64,000 bases of DNA, taken from NCBI RefSeq assembly GCF_008065135.1, contig NZ_CP042914.1, positions 6,491,404 through 6,555,403 of the forward strand, written 5' to 3'. The DNA is from Roseimaritima ulvae. Its GTDB lineage: Bacteria; Planctomycetota; Planctomycetia; Pirellulales; Pirellulaceae. Made by a program: the position numbers and the translations under genes. Within the stretch, counting starts at the first letter, position 1. Every line of letters begins with the position of its first letter. This document shows, piece by piece, positions 38,405 to 45,827 of this stretch. The notes beneath the pieces were generated by a model. It was given only the letters and a program-made list of their open reading frames with translations. It made no database searches and was not told where the DNA came from.

Positions 38405-39015
38405 TCTTCCCACCTCGTGGCGACCAGTTCTCGAATGCGGCGGAGGATCCGGCAGCGGGCGACATACACGGCGCTGTCGGTTAGCTTCAACTCTTGGGCC
38501 ACTTGGGCGACGCTGTGGCCTTCCACCGTGGTCCGCCAAAACGCCATCCAGTTGGCTTCGCCCGTACGGCGGCGGACTTCGCCCGAGGCCCAGCGGAACA
38601 GTTGCTCGCGACGGCCGCGTTCAAATTCTTCGATCAGCTGAGTTTCCGCGTCCATGGACGAATCGGCCAACTGTTCCAGCGGCAAGCCGTCATGGGTGTC
38701 CGGGGAGTGAACACGCTCGGCGGCCAAGCGACGAAAGCGATCGATGGTGGCATTGCGAGCGATTTTGGATAACCAGCCGCGAAACGAACCGGCGGCGTTT
38801 GGATCGAAGCGATCGATGGCGCGGGAAACCGTCAGAAAAACTTCCTGCACGATTTCGCGAGCGTCCGCGTCCTGGCAGCCACGGCGTTGAGCCAACCGAT
38901 AGACCAGCGGCTCATAAACCACCGCAAATTCGCTCCACGCCGCGTTGTCACGCGGATCGCGCAGCCGCAGCAGCAAACTAGCACGTGTCGCCGGATCGGA
39001 CCCCAATGCTGCCAT
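38401..39015 (-). CDS. ECF-type RNA polymerase sigma factor
   Basis: A 204-residue sigma-70 family factor with only regions 2 and 4. Region 2 includes DAREIVQEVFLTVSRAI and FRGWLSKIARNATIDRFRR; region 4 has the helix-turn-helix EGHSVAQVAQELKLTDSAVY. It is the first gene of a three-gene operon with the zinc-finger kinase and the coiled-coil protein. Planctomycetes have many such ECF/kinase units. Its promoter target is unknown. Confidence 0.93.
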   Translation of the reverse strand: MAALGSDPATRASLLLRLRDPRDNAAWSEFAVVYEPLVYRLAQRRGCQDADAREIVQEVFLTVSRAIDRFDPNAAGSFRGWLSKIARNATIDRFRRLAAERVHSPDTHDGLPLEQLADSSMDAETQLIEEFERGRREQLFRWASGEVRRRTGEANWMAFWRTTVEGHSVAQVAQELKLTDSAVYVARCRILRRIRELVATRWEE

Positions 39016-39130
39016 GGTTTGATTTGGATGTTGGTTTGTTGTGCCTACGGTCGCCGGAAGCGAATTTCCCGGCTAACAATAAACCACACGCAGCCCGAAG
39101 CCAAACCTTGCGCCAAAAGCGATTTTTTTA

Positions 39131-39237
39131 GTAGCATGGGCCCCCGGCCCGTGTTGGCTCTTCGTAGCATGGGCCCCCGACCCGTGTTGGCTCGGCGAGG
39201 AACTTCCCTTTCTACACGGGCCAGGGGCCCATGCTAC
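39131..39237. repeat. Three GTAGCATGGG-family repeats
   Basis: Two forward copies (39131-39154 and 39164-39187) and one inverted copy (39214-39237) lie between the sigma factor operon's 5' side and a small membrane protein gene. The inverted copy can pair with either forward copy, giving two alternative hairpins. Confidence 0.9.
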
Positions 39238-39245
39238 TTTTCTTA

Positions 39246-39365
39246 CTACTGACTCGACCGTTTGGCCAGGAACACGACGACGGCGACAATGGCTACCGTC
39301 ACGACGACGGGCAGCGCGATAAGCAACCCGATGATGATCAGCTCTGGTAATCCTGGCATACCCAT
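39246..39365 (-). CDS. Small single-span membrane protein (39 aa)
   Basis: A 39-residue open frame. It starts MGMPGLPELIIIG and continues as one hydrophobic helix of about 27 residues, ending in a short basic tail (AKRSSQ). The amino end (PGLPELIII) recalls TatA-like starts, but there is no amphipathic helix after the membrane segment, so it is not a normal TatA. The stop lies eight bases from an inverted GTAGCATGGG repeat, matching the position of repeats at other gene ends here, which supports its being a real gene. No strong Shine-Dalgarno sequence is visible. Function is unknown. Confidence 0.5.
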   Translation of the reverse strand: MGMPGLPELIIIGLLIALPVVVTVAIVAVVVFLAKRSSQ

Positions 39366-39449
39366 GTGGAAACTCGATTAGGCGGTGGAAAGCTTACGGC
39401 TATAATAGACGAACCGATTGGTTGATTCGCATTCTACGGGCTGAGCTTG

Positions 39450-39992
39450 ATGACCGCCGCAAAAAAATATTTGCCGCATTACACGGTTTCGGACTACCAG
39501 CAATGGGAAGGTGACTGGGAACTGTGGCAGGGTATCGCGGTTTCGATGAGTCCTGGGCCATTCGGACGGCACCAAGCGGCGGCAAAACGGCTGTTAATCC
39601 TGCTGGACAATGAACTCCGGCGTTCCAACTGCCAAGCCGAAGTGATCCACGAAATGGACTGGATCGTGAGCGATGACACCGTGGTCCGGCCGGATGTCGT
39701 GGTGTTGTGCGACGGAGTACCGGATCGCTATATCGAAACCACGCCCGCGGTGGTCGCCGAAGTCCTCTCCGATTCGACTCGCGGGCGTGACACCACTTAC
39801 AAACGCGACCTGTATGACGAACTGGGCGTCGAAGTCTATGTGCTGATCGATCCCGATGTGCAGACGCTGGAAATCTACCGCAGAGATACCAGCGGGAATT
39901 GGCAAGGCGAGTCGGTTACCGATAGCGTCATGTTTTCGGTATGCAGTGGTTGTGAACTGCGCCTGACCCGCACCGCGTTGTTCGCCCCCTAG
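39450..39992 (+). CDS. Uma2 family protein (DUF820, putative endonuclease)
   Basis: A 180-residue PD-(D/E)XK-like protein. It has the family start (YTVSDYQQWEG, then WELWQG), a VRPDVVVLCD segment with the catalytic-type Asp, and VVAEVLSDSTRGRD. Uma2 proteins are plentiful in cyanobacteria and planctomycetes, and their function is unproven. ATG 39450 is chosen over the TTG codon just before it. The stop TAG is the first TAG of a 14-bp tandem repeat. It is a lone gene between opposing neighbours. Confidence 0.85.
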   Translation: MTAAKKYLPHYTVSDYQQWEGDWELWQGIAVSMSPGPFGRHQAAAKRLLILLDNELRRSNCQAEVIHEMDWIVSDDTVVRPDVVVLCDGVPDRYIETTPAVVAEVLSDSTRGRDTTYKRDLYDELGVEVYVLIDPDVQTLEIYRRDTSGNWQGESVTDSVMFSVCSGCELRLTRTALFAP

Positions 39993-40106
39993 CCCATCTC
40001 CCGTAGCCCATCTCCCGTAGCCCATCTCCCATAGCTATGCTCGCCAGAGCGTGGGGACCGCGCACCAATCCACCGTCTGGCACGTAGCCTAGGCTTCCAG
40101 CCTGGG
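39990..40106. repeat. 14-bp tandem repeat and dispersed CGTAGCCTAGG repeat
   Basis: Three copies of TAGCCCATCTCCCG lie at 39990-40031 (third copy one base different); the first TAG is the stop codon of the Uma2 gene. A CTCGCCAGAGCG element follows (near 40040). A CGTAGCCTAGGCTTCCAGCC element at 40083-40106 recurs as an identical copy at 59951-59974, upstream of tex. Confidence 0.85.
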
Positions 40107-40148
40107 AATCTAGCTGGCAATTGTCAGCCTGGAAAGGCTGTCGTACTT

Positions 40149-41108
40149 CTACCGCACGTGCTCGCTGACCCAACTGGACGCCAGCAGCCAGACCAGCAGG
40201 CCTTTCTGCGCATGCATGCGATTGCCCGCTTGGCGAATGATTTGGCTCTGCGGGCCGTCGATCACTTCTTGTGTGATTTCTTCGCCGCGAACGGCCGGCA
40301 AGCAGTGCAGTACGCAGGCGTCCTTGTGGGCCTGCGACATCAATTTTTGGTCGACGCGATAAGGAGCAAAGATCTTGCGGCGCTGCTCCGCCTCGGCTTC
40401 TTGTCCCATGCTGATCCACACGTCGGTATAGATCACATCGGCTTCGGCGATCACATCCGAGGGATGCTCGACGCGGGACAGCTGAGCATCGGGATAGGCT
40501 TTGCGAACCCGTTCCAGCCAAATGTCATCGATGGCATACCCATCCGGGCAAGCCAGGGTGAAGGGCATGCCCAGGATCGCGCAGTGCAGCGCTAGCGAGC
40601 GGGCCACGTTGTTGCCGTCGCCGACGAACATCACGTGGCGTCCGGTCAGGTTGGCAAAGTCGAACTCGCCGTCGCCGCTGAAGACTTCGCCGATCGTGAG
40701 GATGTCGGCCAAGGCTTGGCAGGGGTGGCTCAGGTCGGTCAGCCCGTTGATTACCGGCACGGCTTCAAAACGAGCCAGCTCTTCGACTCGCGCGTGTGAC
40801 TTGGCGCGACAGATCACGGCATCCAAAAACTGTCCCAGCACGCGGGTAAAGTCCGCCGGTGATTCGCGTTTGCCCCAGCCCACGTCTTCGCCCAAGAACA
40901 GGCTGCCCCCGCCCAACTGGTTCATCCCCGCTTCGAAACTGACACGGGTCCGCAAGCTGGGTTTTTCAAACAGCAGGCCGACGGTTTGGCCCGCAAGAAT
41001 CGGCGGCCGATGGCCGTCACGAAGCAATCGTTTGAGGTGCACCGCCGTCGCCAGAATGGTGCGAACTTCCGTCGGTGTTAAATCGAAGAGGGTAAGCAGA
41101 TGTCGCAT
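40149..41108 (-). CDS. argF: Ornithine carbamoyltransferase
   Basis: A 319-residue enzyme that joins carbamoyl phosphate to ornithine to give citrulline. The carbamoyl phosphate loop reads SLRTR, and [19 protein letters not shown] and [10 protein letters not shown] (ornithine site) are all intact. ATG 41108 is chosen because it begins the conserved N-terminus ([11 protein letters not shown]). It is the last gene of an argB / argD-like / argF operon, 42 bases after the argD-like stop. Confidence 0.96.
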
Positions 41109-41150
41109 GGGTCGATTCTGGAGCAAGTTATAGAAAGGAAAGAAGACGCG

Positions 41151-42281
41151 TTAGCCGATGGCGGGTTCGCGTTCGATGGTTTGAAAGACAAGTTTCAGCG
41201 ATTCCACCGACCGCTGCAGTTGTTCGTCGGAGATCGTCAACGGAGGTTGCAGTCGCAAGGTATGGGTGCCGGCCGTGCCCACTCGCACGTTGTGCGAGCG
41301 CAACTGGGCTTGGACCTCGGCGGCCTCCACATCCAATTCCATCGCCACCAACAAGCCGCGACCGCGGACCTCCCGCACGAATTCGAAATCCTCTTGCAAC
41401 CCAGCCAGCTGCTGCAGCCAGAGGTCGCCGCGGCGTTGAGCATCCTGCAGCAAGGACTGATCGTCAATCGCCTGCAGCGTAGCCAGGGCCGCGGCCGCGA
41501 CCAGAGGGCTGACGGGATCGGTTTGCAGTCCGGGATGGTTTTCCAGCGAAGCGGCCAGCGACTGCCCCAGCAACACCGCGCCTAAGGGAAGCCCGACGGC
41601 CAGGCCCGCCGCCAACACCAAGGCATCGGGAACGACTTCGTCGGCGGCGGCATAATGGAACCGGCCGCTGACGCCGATGGGCAGCTGAGTTTCATCGAAA
41701 ATTAACAACAACTGATGTTCATCGGCCAGTTGCCGCAGCGTCGCGAGAAACTCGGCCGGCAGCGACTGCAAGCCATCGTGGGTTTGCAGTGGCTGGACCA
41801 AGATGGCCGCCGTTTGATCGTCGATCGCTTCAGCCACGGCCGCCGCATCGCCGGCCGGGCAATGCACAAAGCCGGCCATCAGCGGCCCCAGATCCTGCTG
41901 CTGCTGAGGGTCCCCCGCCGCCGCTCGAGCCGCCAGAGATTGCCCGTGGTAATCGCCCACGAAGGTGATCACCTTGTACTTCGGTCCGCCGTGAATCCGA
42001 GCCGCGGCGATCGCCCACTCGGTGGCCAAGTCGCCGCAGACGGTCAGAGCGGCCGTGGTGCCAAAGCAAGCCGCCGCGAGTCGTTCCCGCAGCGCCGCGT
42101 CCAACTTGGCCGAGACGTCCTCGACCAACAGCAACTCCGCCGCTTGTTGACCGATGGTTTGAGCGACTTGCACCGCGGCATTACCGAGGATCGCTTGCCC
42201 GCCAGCGGGGAACAGATCGATCGCCTCGCCAGCCGGTTCGTCGTCAACCGGTTCGTCGTCATCAAGAGTCGAAGAATTCAT
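41151..42281 (-). CDS. Class III aminotransferase-like protein lacking the PLP lysine (ArgD paralogue)
   Basis: A 376-residue class III (ornithine/acetylornithine) aminotransferase-fold protein. It keeps ITFVGDYHGQS and Asp196 of the LIFDETQ motif that contacts the PLP ring nitrogen. The cofactor-binding region reads PDALVLAAGLAVGLPLGA, so the Schiff-base lysine (AKG in ArgD) is Ala225. The SGAEANE motif has become GDLATEW, and EPIQGEGG has become QPLQTHDG. The N-terminal substrate segment is shortened and acidic. It should therefore be catalytically inactive as an aminotransferase. It sits between argB and argF, the place of argD in many arginine operons, and may be a structural or regulatory paralogue. 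A true argD must lie elsewhere. Confidence 0.85.
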   Translation of the reverse strand: MNSSTLDDDEPVDDEPAGEAIDLFPAGGQAILGNAAVQVAQTIGQQAAELLLVEDVSAKLDAALRERLAAACFGTTAALTVCGDLATEWAIAAARIHGGPKYKVITFVGDYHGQSLAARAAAGDPQQQQDLGPLMAGFVHCPAGDAAAVAEAIDDQTAAILVQPLQTHDGLQSLPAEFLATLRQLADEHQLLLIFDETQLPIGVSGRFHYAAADEVVPDALVLAAGLAVGLPLGAVLLGQSLAASLENHPGLQTDPVSPLVAAAALATLQAIDDQSLLQDAQRRGDLWLQQLAGLQEDFEFVREVRGRGLLVAMELDVEAAEVQAQLRSHNVRVGTAGTHTLRLQPPLTISDEQLQRSVESLKLVFQTIEREPAIG

Positions 42282-42306
42282 AGCAGCCCAACAGTAAGCG
42301 GATCAT

Positions 42307-42402
42307 GGTCGTCTTTCGCTCCGCGAAAGCATCGCAACAAAATAGTTCTCTCAGAGCAAACAAATGATTTAAAACGTTGCTTTCGCGGAGCGAAAGACGA
42401 CC
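42307..42402. repeat. Perfect 25-bp inverted repeat, CTTTCGCTCCGCGAAAG type
   Basis: The arms at 42307-42331 and 42378-42402 are perfect reverse complements around a 46-base AT-richer loop. Each arm is itself partly self-complementary (CTTTCGC and GCGAAAG). A third partial copy (GGAGCGAAAGACGAT) follows at 42405-42420, ending just before the argB stop. The element lies inside the arginine operon, between argB and the argD-like gene. Confidence 0.92.
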
Positions 42403-42425
42403 AACGGAGCGAAAGACGATCTTGA

Positions 42426-43295
42426 TTAGGGCACGATTTGCGTTCCCACGCCGCTGGTGGTGTAAATCTCCAGCAGCAGGGAATGTCTCAAACAACCGTC
42501 GACGATGTGGACCTTGCCGACGCCTCGATTCAAGGTCGCCAGACAAGCTTCGACCTTGGGAATCATACCGCCTTCGATGACGCCCTGCTGAATCAGCTCG
42601 CGGGCTTCGTCGGCGGTCAGCGAATTAATAATGCTATCCGGATCGTCTTTGTCGCGTCGCACGCCATTGACGTCGCTCAAAAAGATCAGTTTTTCGGCTC
42701 CCAAGGCTTCGGCCACGGCCATCGCTGCGGTGTCGGCGTTGACGTTCAAGTGTTCGCCATCGCTTTCATCCACACACATCGACGGGATCACAGGCACTTG
42801 ATCGGTGTACGACAGGCCTTCGATGACTTGGCGTTCCACGCGAGTGACTTCGCCCACATAGCCCAGGTCGCCGCCGTGACCGTCCAGCTGCAGGCGGCGG
42901 CCGAACAGCACATTGGTGGTGTGCACCGACAGGTTCATGCCGCGGCCGCCGAGGTATTCGATCTGTTGGGTCAGGTACTCGTTCAGCTCACCCGCCAGCA
43001 CGGTGCGAACGATATCCCGCGTGGGCTGGTCGGTGACGCGACGACCATGCACAAACTGCGGTTCGATGCCCGCTTTCTTCAGAGCTCGGGTGATCGCCTT
43101 GCCGCCGCCGTGCACGATCACTGGCCGCATGCCCACGGTTTCCATAAAGATCACGTCGACCAGGATGTGCTGCAGCGCGGCTTCATCGTCCAGCAGGCTG
43201 CCGCCCAGTTTGATCACGGTGGTTTTTCCACGAAATCGACGAATCCAGCCCATCGCTTCGATTAAGGTATTGGCTTTCGCAATGGCTTCTTGCAC
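42426..43295 (-). CDS. argB: Acetylglutamate kinase
   Basis: A 289-residue enzyme that phosphorylates N-acetylglutamate, the second step of arginine synthesis. It has VIKLGGS near the start, the VHGGGKAIT loop, and LSDVNGV and GMIPKVEA motifs of the nucleotide and substrate sites. The start is GTG 43295, with a GGAG sequence ~12 bases upstream; the N-terminal helix it gives is the one seen in arginine-sensitive hexameric enzymes, so feedback control is plausible. It is the first gene of the argB / argD-like / argF operon and diverges from proC. Confidence 0.95.
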
Positions 43296-43424
43296 GCCGC
43301 AGGTGCTCCAAACTGTGGGGACTGTTCGAAATCGGAAAAACCGATCAATCTAGGAGGAAACGAGGCGTATTGTCAACATTCCATCGTGATTCCCACACTC
43401 CTGTCGTCGACGAGACACGAAAGC

Positions 43425-44243
43425 ATGAACCGGATCGAAGGTAAACTTGTCCTGCTGGGCGGTGGAAAGATGGGGCGGGCCCTGATCAAGGGGGTTTTAT
43501 CCGCCGGTGTCACGACCGAATCGCAGCTTACCGTAGTCGAACCCCACGCCGGGGCTCAACAGTGGTGGCGTGACGAATTGCCGGGCGTGAGCGTCACGGG
43601 CGATGGCCAAGCAGCCATCGAGGCGGCTCAGATCGTACTGGTCGCGGTCAAACCCAACGTCGTTCAACAGGTTGCCGGCTCGTTTTCGGGCTCCTGGGGC
43701 GAGCGTTTGGTGATTTCCATCGCCGCCGGCGTCACGCTCGAACGCCTCCAAAACCTGTTCGACAGCCGCTGCGTCGTACGCGTCATGCCCAACACGCCCT
43801 GCTTGGTCGGCGCGGGAGCTTCGGCGTATGCCTGTGGCGAAGCCGTTTCGTCGGAGCAGGCGGCGACGGTGGCGGCGATCTTCTCCGCCGTGGGCGTGGT
43901 CGATCAGGTCGACGAACAACTGCTCGACGCCGTCACGGGGCTGAGCGGATCGGGGCCGGCGTACGTGTTTGTGATTATCGAAGCGTTGGCCGATGGCGGC
44001 GTGGCGGCCGGACTGCCGCGGCCGCTGGCCATGCAATTGGCCACCCAGACGGTCTTGGGCGCCGCTCAATTGCTGCAGGAAACCGGCGAACACCCCGCCG
44101 CCCTCAAGGATGCCGTGGCCAGCCCGGGGGGGACAACCATTGCCGGTTTGTCGGTGTTGGAACAAAATGGCCTACGGTCGGCTATGATCGAAGCGGTCAA
44201 GGCGGCCACCGAACGCAGCCGGGCCCTCGGTTCTCACGCCTAA
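43425..44243 (+). CDS. proC: Pyrroline-5-carboxylate reductase
   Basis: A 272-residue NADPH-dependent reductase completing proline synthesis. The Rossmann motif is LLGGGKMGRALIKG, with VAVKPNVV, RVMPNTPCLVG and the P5CR signature VASPGGTTIAGL near the C-terminus. ATG 43425 is chosen, because the 45-residue extension open upstream would run into the divergent argB start. It leads a probable proC / 80-aa protein / hisE / hisG run. Confidence 0.95.
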   Translation: MNRIEGKLVLLGGGKMGRALIKGVLSAGVTTESQLTVVEPHAGAQQWWRDELPGVSVTGDGQAAIEAAQIVLVAVKPNVVQQVAGSFSGSWGERLVISIAAGVTLERLQNLFDSRCVVRVMPNTPCLVGAGASAYACGEAVSSEQAATVAAIFSAVGVVDQVDEQLLDAVTGLSGSGPAYVFVIIEALADGGVAAGLPRPLAMQLATQTVLGAAQLLQETGEHPAALKDAVASPGGTTIAGLSVLEQNGLRSAMIEAVKAATERSRALGSHA

Positions 44244-44295
44244 CCCGGACCACTCACACTTTTTTGCTCGGTTACGATCGAGGGAGTCAACATCC

Positions 44296-44538
44296 ATGGA
44301 ATCGCCGCTCTGCTTGGTAGACGACAAGCATCTGCCGCTATACCGCATCCTTTGGGTATCCGACACGCCCCATTTCTGTGGAGAAGAGGACTGCATGTGC
44401 GAGGGACGCTACGAAGTCCGACTGGAAGCCGATGAGTCCTTGTGGGCCAATCGCGATGAACGCGACATGTTGATCGCGGCTCTCAATCGCTGGTGCGGCG
44501 ACGTGGAATCCGGTGGTCTGGAAGGCGGCGAACTGTAA
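44296..44538 (+). CDS. Hypothetical 80-residue protein with Cys cluster
   Basis: An 80-residue soluble protein I do not recognise. It has a C-x5-C-x-C cluster (residues 28-36: CGEEDCMCEG), a further Cys in RWCGD near 67, and an acidic composition. It lies four bases before hisE and 52 bases after proC. The codon use matches its neighbours, and the tight spacing to hisE supports a real gene. The Cys spacing could bind a metal, but there is no family match I can name. Confidence 0.65.
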   Translation: MESPLCLVDDKHLPLYRILWVSDTPHFCGEEDCMCEGRYEVRLEADESLWANRDERDMLIAALNRWCGDVESGGLEGGEL

Positions 44539-44541
44539 CCC

Positions 44542-44934
44542 ATGGCCGAATCTGGATCTGAATCAAAATTTAAAAACACTCCCAATCCCGACGGCGTGCT
44601 GGCGCTGCGGCGGCTGATGGACACACTCCAACAACGCGCCGCCGACCGCCCGCCCAAATCCTACACCACCAAACTGCTCGACGGCGGCATCGAAAAAATC
44701 GGTGCCAAAATTCGCGAAGAAGCCGAAGAGTTGATCGAAGCGGCCGCGGAAGGCGAGGCTGCCGGCCGCGAACATTTTGTCTACGAAGCGGCCGACCTGC
44801 TGTACCACACGATGGTGATGCTGGCTTGGCGTGGCGTCGACATCGACGAAATCGCCAACGAACTACAACGACGCGAAGGCACCTCCGGGTTGGTCGAAAA
44901 GGCCAGCCGTGCCAAGAAAGAATCCACCGAATGA
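44542..44934 (+). CDS. hisE: Phosphoribosyl-ATP diphosphatase
   Basis: A 130-residue MazG-like enzyme for the second step of histidine synthesis, converting phosphoribosyl-ATP to phosphoribosyl-AMP. The core motif SYTTKLLDGGIEKIGAKIREE and EEAEELIEAA metal-binding residues are typical, as is LLYHTMVMLAWRGVD. It is a stand-alone HisE, not fused to HisI. The stop overlaps the hisG start as ATGA, which couples the first two steps of the pathway. Confidence 0.93.
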   Translation: MAESGSESKFKNTPNPDGVLALRRLMDTLQQRAADRPPKSYTTKLLDGGIEKIGAKIREEAEELIEAAAEGEAAGREHFVYEAADLLYHTMVMLAWRGVDIDEIANELQRREGTSGLVEKASRAKKESTE

Positions 44935-45827
44935 CCACTGCCAACGAATCGACTTCATCCAATCCCGCCTCGAATCGCGAAAACCTCCGCATCGGCCTGC
45001 CCAGCAAAGGCCGCCTGAGCGACCTGGCCGGCGATCTGCTCCGCCAAGCCGGCTTGCGGTTCCGACGGCAAAACCGCGGCCTGTTTGCTCGCGTCAGCGG
45101 CCTGCCAATCGACTTGACCTTCCTCCGCACCGATGACATTCCCACGCTGTGTGCCGAAGGCGCCATCGACATGGGCATCACCGGCAGCGACTTGGTGGCG
45201 GAAACCGAAGCGGCCGCGTCGGTCCGCATGCCGCTGGGCGTAGGACGCTGCCGCCTAGCCGTCTGCGTGCCGGAAGACTCCTCCTTCAAAACCGCGGCAG
45301 ACCTGGACGGCACCCGCATCGCCAGCAGCTTCCCCACGCTGACCAAACGCTACCTGGAAAAATTTGGCGCCTCGGCACACCTGGTCTCGCTGTCGGGAAG
45401 CGTCGAAGTGATGATCCAGTTGGGCGTGGCCGATGCGATCGTCGACCTGGTCGAAACCGGCAGCACGCTGGCCGCCAACCGCCTGCGAATCCTGGACGAA
45501 ATCGGCTCCTACGAAACGGTACTGATCCAAAACGAAAACTGCCGCGATGCTGAAACGGCCGACCGCGTGGTGCGGCGACTGGAAGGCGTCACCATCGCCC
45601 GCGACTACTCGCTGCTGGAATACAACGTGCCGCGAGAAAAACTGACCGCCGCCGAAGCCATCACGCCGGGCTTCAATTCACCGACCATCGGCACCCTGGA
45701 AGACGAAAGCTGGTGCTCGGTGCGAGCGATGGTCAAACGCCACAGCGTGATCGACGCCATGGAGCAACTGGAACAGCTGGGCGCCTCGGCCATCCTGGAA
45801 ACCTCGATCGCCAACTGCCGGTTGTAA
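44931..45827 (+). CDS. hisG: ATP phosphoribosyltransferase, long form
   Basis: A 298-residue enzyme that joins ATP and PRPP, the committed step of histidine synthesis. It has GLPSKGRLSD, DMGITGSDLVAE, and the PRPP loop region DLVETGSTLAANRL. The length and the C-terminal ~75 residues (from about VRRLEG) show the long form with its own regulatory domain, so no HisZ partner is needed and histidine feedback is expected. It is translationally coupled to hisE. Confidence 0.94.
   Translation: MTTANESTSSNPASNRENLRIGLPSKGRLSDLAGDLLRQAGLRFRRQNRGLFARVSGLPIDLTFLRTDDIPTLCAEGAIDMGITGSDLVAETEAAASVRMPLGVGRCRLAVCVPEDSSFKTAADLDGTRIASSFPTLTKRYLEKFGASAHLVSLSGSVEVMIQLGVADAIVDLVETGSTLAANRLRILDEIGSYETVLIQNENCRDAETADRVVRRLEGVTIARDYSLLEYNVPREKLTAAEAITPGFNSPTIGTLEDESWCSVRAMVKRHSVIDAMEQLEQLGASAILETSIANCRL

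Follow-up and report, generated by a model that had tools for sequence, protein, structure and literature searches.

Serine palmitoyltransferase is a mixed dimer of LCB1 and LCB2, in which a lysine-less protein of a PLP-enzyme fold is kept beside an active relative, and the ColD-type dehydratases are lysine-less PLP enzymes of the same fold type as acetylornithine aminotransferase (ArgD). The arginine succinyltransferase (AST) operon serves arginine breakdown and can be expected to include a gene for a succinylornithine transaminase. PMC3590144 describes the succinylornithine transaminase of E. coli, AstC, as interchangeable in function with ArgD, and PMC10783636 describes an ornithine-dependent binding of Synechocystis ArgD to Gun4, a protein of chlorophyll synthesis, which provides a precedent for ArgD as a binding partner. 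The window analyzed here (64,000 nucleotides of the Roseimaritima ulvae genome, family Pirellulaceae, whose own coordinates are used below) carries between argB and argF a gene whose product shares with canonical ArgD (TIGR00707; structures 2e54 and 4jev) its full-length fold, its slot in the gene order and its descent, but differs from it in the loss of the Schiff-base lysine, in a rebuilt PLP site, in an N-terminal arm that was not seen and in reaching half the cut-off of the ArgD model. This dead ArgD, referred to as pseudo-ArgD, probably has a new function that is not catalytic, and its death is apparently due to another aminotransferase taking over the reaction.

The gene and its two neighbors are encoded on the same strand, as follows:

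40149..41126, minus strand: argF, ornithine carbamoyltransferase, downstream of pseudo-ArgD; NF001986 and TIGR00658 over cut-off
41151..42281, minus strand: pseudo-ArgD, intact class III aminotransferase fold of 376 residues, PLP lysine absent
42426..43295, minus strand: argB, acetylglutamate kinase, upstream of pseudo-ArgD; TIGR00761 over cut-off

The pseudo-ArgD frame begins with ATG, and the plus-strand reading of the same interval contains stops. Residues 19-364 match Pfam Aminotran_3 (PF00202) with E=1.2e-53, which assigns the protein to the class III fold, and its best NCBIfam matches are acetylornithine transaminase models, all well below their cut-offs (206.9 of 410.05 bits for TIGR00707, the argD model). 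The AlphaFold2 model, computed from the 25-row alignment A2, is confident (pLDDT 89.3, pTM 0.88) except for the poorly modeled residues 1-17, and the solved structure nearest to it is the acetylornithine aminotransferase 2e54 (Z 47.4, 2.8 A, 366 residues). The intact ArgD-like frame between argB and argF reported in the first-pass annotation of this DNA is therefore borne out by the ORF, the PF00202 match and the models of the neighboring genes. The spacer between argB and pseudo-ArgD contains a 29-nt inverted repeat (42306-42334 and 42375-42403, 97% complementary), whose RNA folds far better than shuffled sequences (z -6.5) and whose core is present in 10 copies in the genome, 2 of them at this spot; no inverted repeat was found in the corresponding spacers of three genus relatives. 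It is possibly a small dispersed element affecting read-through. Promoter and terminator scans yielded no more sites than shuffled sequences, and Rfam gave no match within 39000-45000. Divergently from argB, the plus strand of 43290-45827 carries ORFs resembling, by eye, ProC (43290-44243), HisE (44542-44934) and HisG (44826-45827).

Positions of the PLP site were numbered as in the S. typhimurium enzyme through an alignment with solved enzymes, and were compared between the 20 pseudo-ArgDs of alignment A2 and five canonical ArgDs. Two further loci, L051 (a run of N) and L061 (a frameshift), were excluded from alignments A1 and A2. The site in the window is composed of the following codons:

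41607..41609, minus strand: codon 225 (GCG, Ala), Schiff-base lysine position (K255-equivalent); lysine gone in 20/20
41694..41696, minus strand: codon 196 (Asp), D226-equivalent; Asp retained in 20/20
41793..41795, minus strand: codon 163 (Gln), pocket Glu (E198-equivalent); Glu gone in 20/20
41940..41942, minus strand: codon 114 (Gln), substrate-binding Arg (R144-equivalent); Arg retained in 12/20, the window protein not among them
41949..41951, minus strand: codon 111 (Tyr), ring-stacking Phe (F141-equivalent); Asp or Glu in 18/20, Tyr in 2/20
42030..42032, minus strand: codon 84 (Asp), phosphate-site Thr/Ala (position 109); Asp or Glu in 18/20, Ala in 2/20

In canonical enzymes, the D226-equivalent Asp pairs with the PLP ring nitrogen and the T284-equivalent Thr, which the window protein retains, reaches the phosphate of the neighboring subunit; the roles of AstC Arg141 and Lys252 are given as in PMC3590144. 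In the alignment with solved enzymes, Ala225 takes the place of the Schiff-base lysine of both the T. maritima and the S. typhimurium acetylornithine aminotransferase, and L051 and L061 also lack the lysine in a wider alignment, so that the loss of the lysine claimed in the first-pass annotation extends to 22 of 22 proteins. That two other conserved motifs are altered was also confirmed, SG(A/T)EAN, FHGR and EPIQGEGG all being changed. A shifted lysine elsewhere in the active site, which would have spoken against the claim, is not suggested for the window protein and its three genus relatives, whose residues 205-245 contain no lysine; some lysine is present in this stretch in 8 of the other 16 aligned pseudo-ArgDs, in none of them at or next to the lysine position. 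Where the R144-equivalent is not Arg, the pseudo-ArgDs of A2 carry Gln, Asp, Val or Gly, and the solved mutant 4jf1 shows the same change as Gln114 of the window. Over the whole protein, 30 of the positions invariant in the five canonical ArgDs are retained in at least 16 of the 20 pseudo-ArgDs and 80 in at most 2, and 24 positions are newly conserved, i.e. shared by at least 15 of the 20 (Asp and Glu pooled) and absent from the five canonical proteins.

The N termini were compared as well. The canonical arm, roughly 40 residues long and closing with RYPVNLVRGEGS or something near it, was found in all 17 canonical ArgDs examined; none was seen in those 18 pseudo-ArgDs whose start could be placed, for which up to 110 residues of each extension were viewed. 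Six of these 18 (L046, L047, L048, L052, L053 and L064) carry extensions of 81-341 residues that are strongly acidic, with Asp and Glu making up about 40-50%. The gene starts in this comparison are mechanical guesses, and four of the 22 loci (L051, L060, L061 and L062) gave no usable one.

The distribution of pseudo-ArgD was analyzed in a sample of 119 Pirellulaceae genomes. In place of Ala225, the three other members of the genus have Gln, Ser or Glu, and the relatives fetched from other genera keep Lys in 26 of 26 cases. In 20 chosen neighborhoods, 18 from the weaker matches of the family search and two from the window genus, the order argB - ArgD-like gene - argF was found throughout, argF being cut by the contig end in L052. 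Together with the window and L215 they amount to 22 genomes, which belong to eight genera (g1, g12, g14, g37, g38, g45, g46 and g55), and aligning these orthologues at residue 225, as the first-pass annotation had proposed, revealed mostly Ala, but also Gln, Ser, Glu and Gly, and never Lys. A search for ArgB in 28 genomes gave 23 matches, of which 20 neighborhoods were fetched (G017, G067 and G093 were left out). In 12 of these 20, argB is directly beside argF without any ArgD-like gene, so that the protein is dispensable in these relatives; the rest comprise six canonical ArgDs, one pseudo-ArgD and one neighborhood ending at a contig edge. In the draft genome G115 the pseudo-ArgD gene (L061:5400-6050) is apparently split by a frameshift, the genus relatives L060 and L062 being open. 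A scan of a wider collection with the single window protein gave no match, and with alignment A1 it gave 80 loci, many of them from Rhodobacteraceae and other distant relatives.

The first-pass annotation had also predicted a second argD elsewhere in the genome. None of the proteins of the window genome reaches the cut-off of the argD model, so that a canonical argD was rejected; nor does ArgD exceed the cut-off in any of the 22 pseudo-ArgD genomes, as opposed to 64 of the 119 genomes of the family. ArgJ and ArgC exceeded their cut-offs in all 18 genomes tested, whether or not these had ArgD, which indicates that the acetylated arginine pathway is otherwise present. Six proteins of the window genome (G000, a single contig of 8,212,515 bases) exceed the PF00202 cut-off, i.e. 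BioA, HemL, a protein with a HemL-like domain, L003, pseudo-ArgD and L006. L001 and L002, which are BioA and HemL by model, and L005, the large protein with the HemL-like domain, are unlikely substitutes, and L003 was rejected since its aminotransferase part occurs in only 5 of the 119 genomes. L003:265-2772 encodes an 835-residue protein in which a class III aminotransferase is fused to a second domain resembling, by eye, a shikimate-dehydrogenase-type reductase. The proposed substitute is L006, an orphan class III aminotransferase (G000:C1:2491320-2492717; also L216:7321-8721). In G000, its gene adjoins that of an M20-family hydrolase (L216:5641-6894) and is far from AstA.

Proteins of the L006 type are present in 58 of the 119 genomes (E under 1e-60), and their occurrence is largely complementary to that of canonical ArgD: 14 genomes have both, 50 only ArgD, 44 only the L006 type and 11 neither (Fisher p=1.5e-10, a value to be taken as a guide only because the genomes are related). 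With one genome per genus (68), the same classes hold 6, 36, 19 and 7 (p=1.5e-6), and among the 68 genomes at least 95% complete they hold 12, 27, 29 and 0, so that every one of the 29 such genomes without canonical ArgD has an L006-type protein. Among the eleven genomes with neither enzyme, ten are at most 91% complete and the other, G054, is 94% complete. A class III protein of G054 scores 376.7 bits, slightly below the argD cut-off. The L006 type accompanies pseudo-ArgD in 21 of 22 genomes, the exception being 82% complete, and it also occurs without any pseudo-ArgD, e.g. in g36, g11 and g59. The strongest point in its favor, in a survey that covers class III aminotransferases, is an elimination: G036, G086 and G111 have three such proteins each (E under 1e-10), namely BioA, HemL and an L006-type protein, the L006-type match of G036 spanning one TAG and the frame of this protein itself having 470 codons. 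These sequence comparisons suggest that the acetylornithine step is most likely performed by the L006-type aminotransferase, and the predicted second argD would thus exist in function but not in kind.

The surroundings of the L006-type genes point to arginine breakdown. In 6 of 12 inspected neighborhoods they lie beside AstA, the arginine/ornithine succinyltransferase, which was checked against its model in L223 and L225; AstD and AstB come next in L224 and L225, as in an AST operon. Although this placement beside AstA, AstD and AstB is that of AstC, L006 belongs to another class III subfamily, scoring 96.2 of the 609.95 bits required by the astC model TIGR03246. AstA is present in 42 of the 119 genomes and adjacent to the L006-type gene in 33 of the 58 genomes that have one. 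All 14 genomes with both ArgD and the L006 type have AstA, adjacent in 13; of the 44 L006-type genomes without ArgD, 20 have it adjacent, 6 (including G000) at another place and 18 not at all. L006-type proteins without AstA are therefore confined to ArgD-less genomes (18/44 versus 0/14; Fisher p=0.0027), which indicates that the L006 type persists after loss of the AST pathway only in genomes that lack ArgD. Such persistence is what would be expected if it now makes acetylornithine.

Pseudo-ArgD may have arisen once or twice. In a tree of ArgB plus ArgF (41 rows), its genera fall into two groups, Roseimaritima and a larger clade to which the empty-slot genus g36 also belongs, both within an open fork together with g7 and g66, genera with both enzymes; uniting the pseudo-ArgD genera and g36 in one clade is compatible with the data by the AU test (p=0.268). 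The ArgD tree (20 pseudo and 17 canonical rows) separates the two kinds cleanly (100/100), a grouping that long branches could also cause. Beyond these observations, we infer which enzyme performs the step, in what order the changes came and what pseudo-ArgD does today. In part of the Pirellulaceae, acetylornithine transamination would have been handed from ArgD to the L006-type aminotransferase, which several relatives carry in the AST operon, and ArgD, still encoded between argB and argF, would thereby have been freed. Some lineages would then have deleted it, and in eight genera it would have lost its PLP contacts and been retained by selection as a non-catalytic protein, whose remodeled pocket may bind a basic metabolite of the pathway, such as ornithine or arginine, and which may serve ArgB, ArgF or both as a regulatory or scaffolding subunit. 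Taken as a whole, this is the explanation towards which we lean, if only somewhat.

According to dN/dS values calculated by NG86, the two unsaturated pairs of pseudo-ArgDs (dS under 0.7) gave 0.083 (L058/L059) and 0.141 (L053/L052), and eight further pairs with dS above 1.1 gave 0.115-0.405 (0.284 for the window versus L064); one pair of canonical ArgDs gave 0.033. ArgB and ArgF were below pseudo-ArgD in each of the ten pairs that yielded a value, and pseudo-ArgD is therefore constrained, yet evolves several times faster than its neighbors. This rate, the absence of about 55 N-terminal residues in G028, the frameshift in draft G115 and the gene deletion in 12 of 20 other neighborhoods would agree with a slowly decaying, functionless relic, whose frame is kept only because stops and frameshifts would be polar on the downstream argF. 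Nevertheless, the low dN/dS of the unsaturated pairs and the 24 newly conserved positions across eight genera argue against a relic, as does the predicted confident full fold, and we consider it rather unlikely. Loss of the catalytic residue across orthologues combined with purifying selection is what characterizes a pseudoenzyme, and the site comparison, the dN/dS values and the newly conserved positions thus support the pseudoenzyme proposed in the first-pass annotation.

Other functions for a retained protein were also considered. By analogy with Synechocystis, pseudo-ArgD could serve a partner outside arginine synthesis, to which the acidic tails found in 6 of 18 proteins might bind; the Synechocystis protein, as PMC10783636 describes it, is an ornithine-responsive binding partner and still an enzyme of arginine metabolism, whereas activity would not be expected in pseudo-ArgD, and the slot between argB and argF, kept in 22 of 22 genomes, points to the arginine pathway, which makes an outside partner improbable. 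A mixed dimer with the L006-type aminotransferase, in analogy to LCB1/LCB2, would join two class III folds that co-occur in all but one incomplete pseudo-ArgD genome. The catalytic partner of an LCB1-type obligate pseudo-subunit is always found with the dead one, but here the active enzyme is encoded elsewhere, often without pseudo-ArgD (g36, g11, g59), and accompanies canonical ArgD in 14 genomes, so that we give such a dimer little credence. It seems very improbable that pseudo-ArgD is still a PLP enzyme with a lysine-independent chemistry. Lysine-less PLP enzymes of this fold type do exist and all 20 aligned proteins keep the Asp of the ring nitrogen, but acidic residues occupy the phosphate site and the ring-stacking position in 18 of them, none has the pocket Glu, and the canonical N-terminal arm was not seen.

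Our best guess, which agrees with the first-pass annotation, is that pseudo-ArgD probably regulates or scaffolds arginine synthesis as a subunit without catalytic activity. Binding of a basic ligand is suggested because the phosphate and ring sites are acidic in 18 of 20 proteins, the Asp is kept in 20 of 20 and the carboxylate-binding Arg in 12 of 20, and a pocket of this composition would be better matched to a basic amino acid than to PLP. The window protein appears to fit such a pocket less well than most of its relatives, having Tyr and Gln in place of the acidic residue and Arg, and the retained Thr. In its most specific form, which we put forward tentatively and hold to be doubtful, an aminotransferase of arginine breakdown took over the step and the displaced ArgD became a metabolite sensor, with an acidic pocket for ornithine or arginine and in some cases hyper-acidic tails, that gates ArgB and/or ArgF.

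The titles and opening parts of the abstracts found in the literature, most subscription papers lying outside the scope, contained no report of a planctomycete pseudo-ArgD or of its substitute, and the words "pseudoenzyme" and "catalytic lysine" were not found in the main text of PMC9309667. If the proposed takeover is true, living genera of the Pirellulaceae would preserve a record of how an enzyme becomes redundant and is then either deleted or given a new non-catalytic role, with its stages still on view as ArgD alone, both enzymes, the substitute with a dead ArgD, and the substitute alone. It would also predict which enzyme fills the gap in arginine synthesis in a large group of planctomycetes, and the genes likely to be called argD in those that carry pseudo-ArgD would not encode aminotransferases, which would affect metabolic models of these bacteria.
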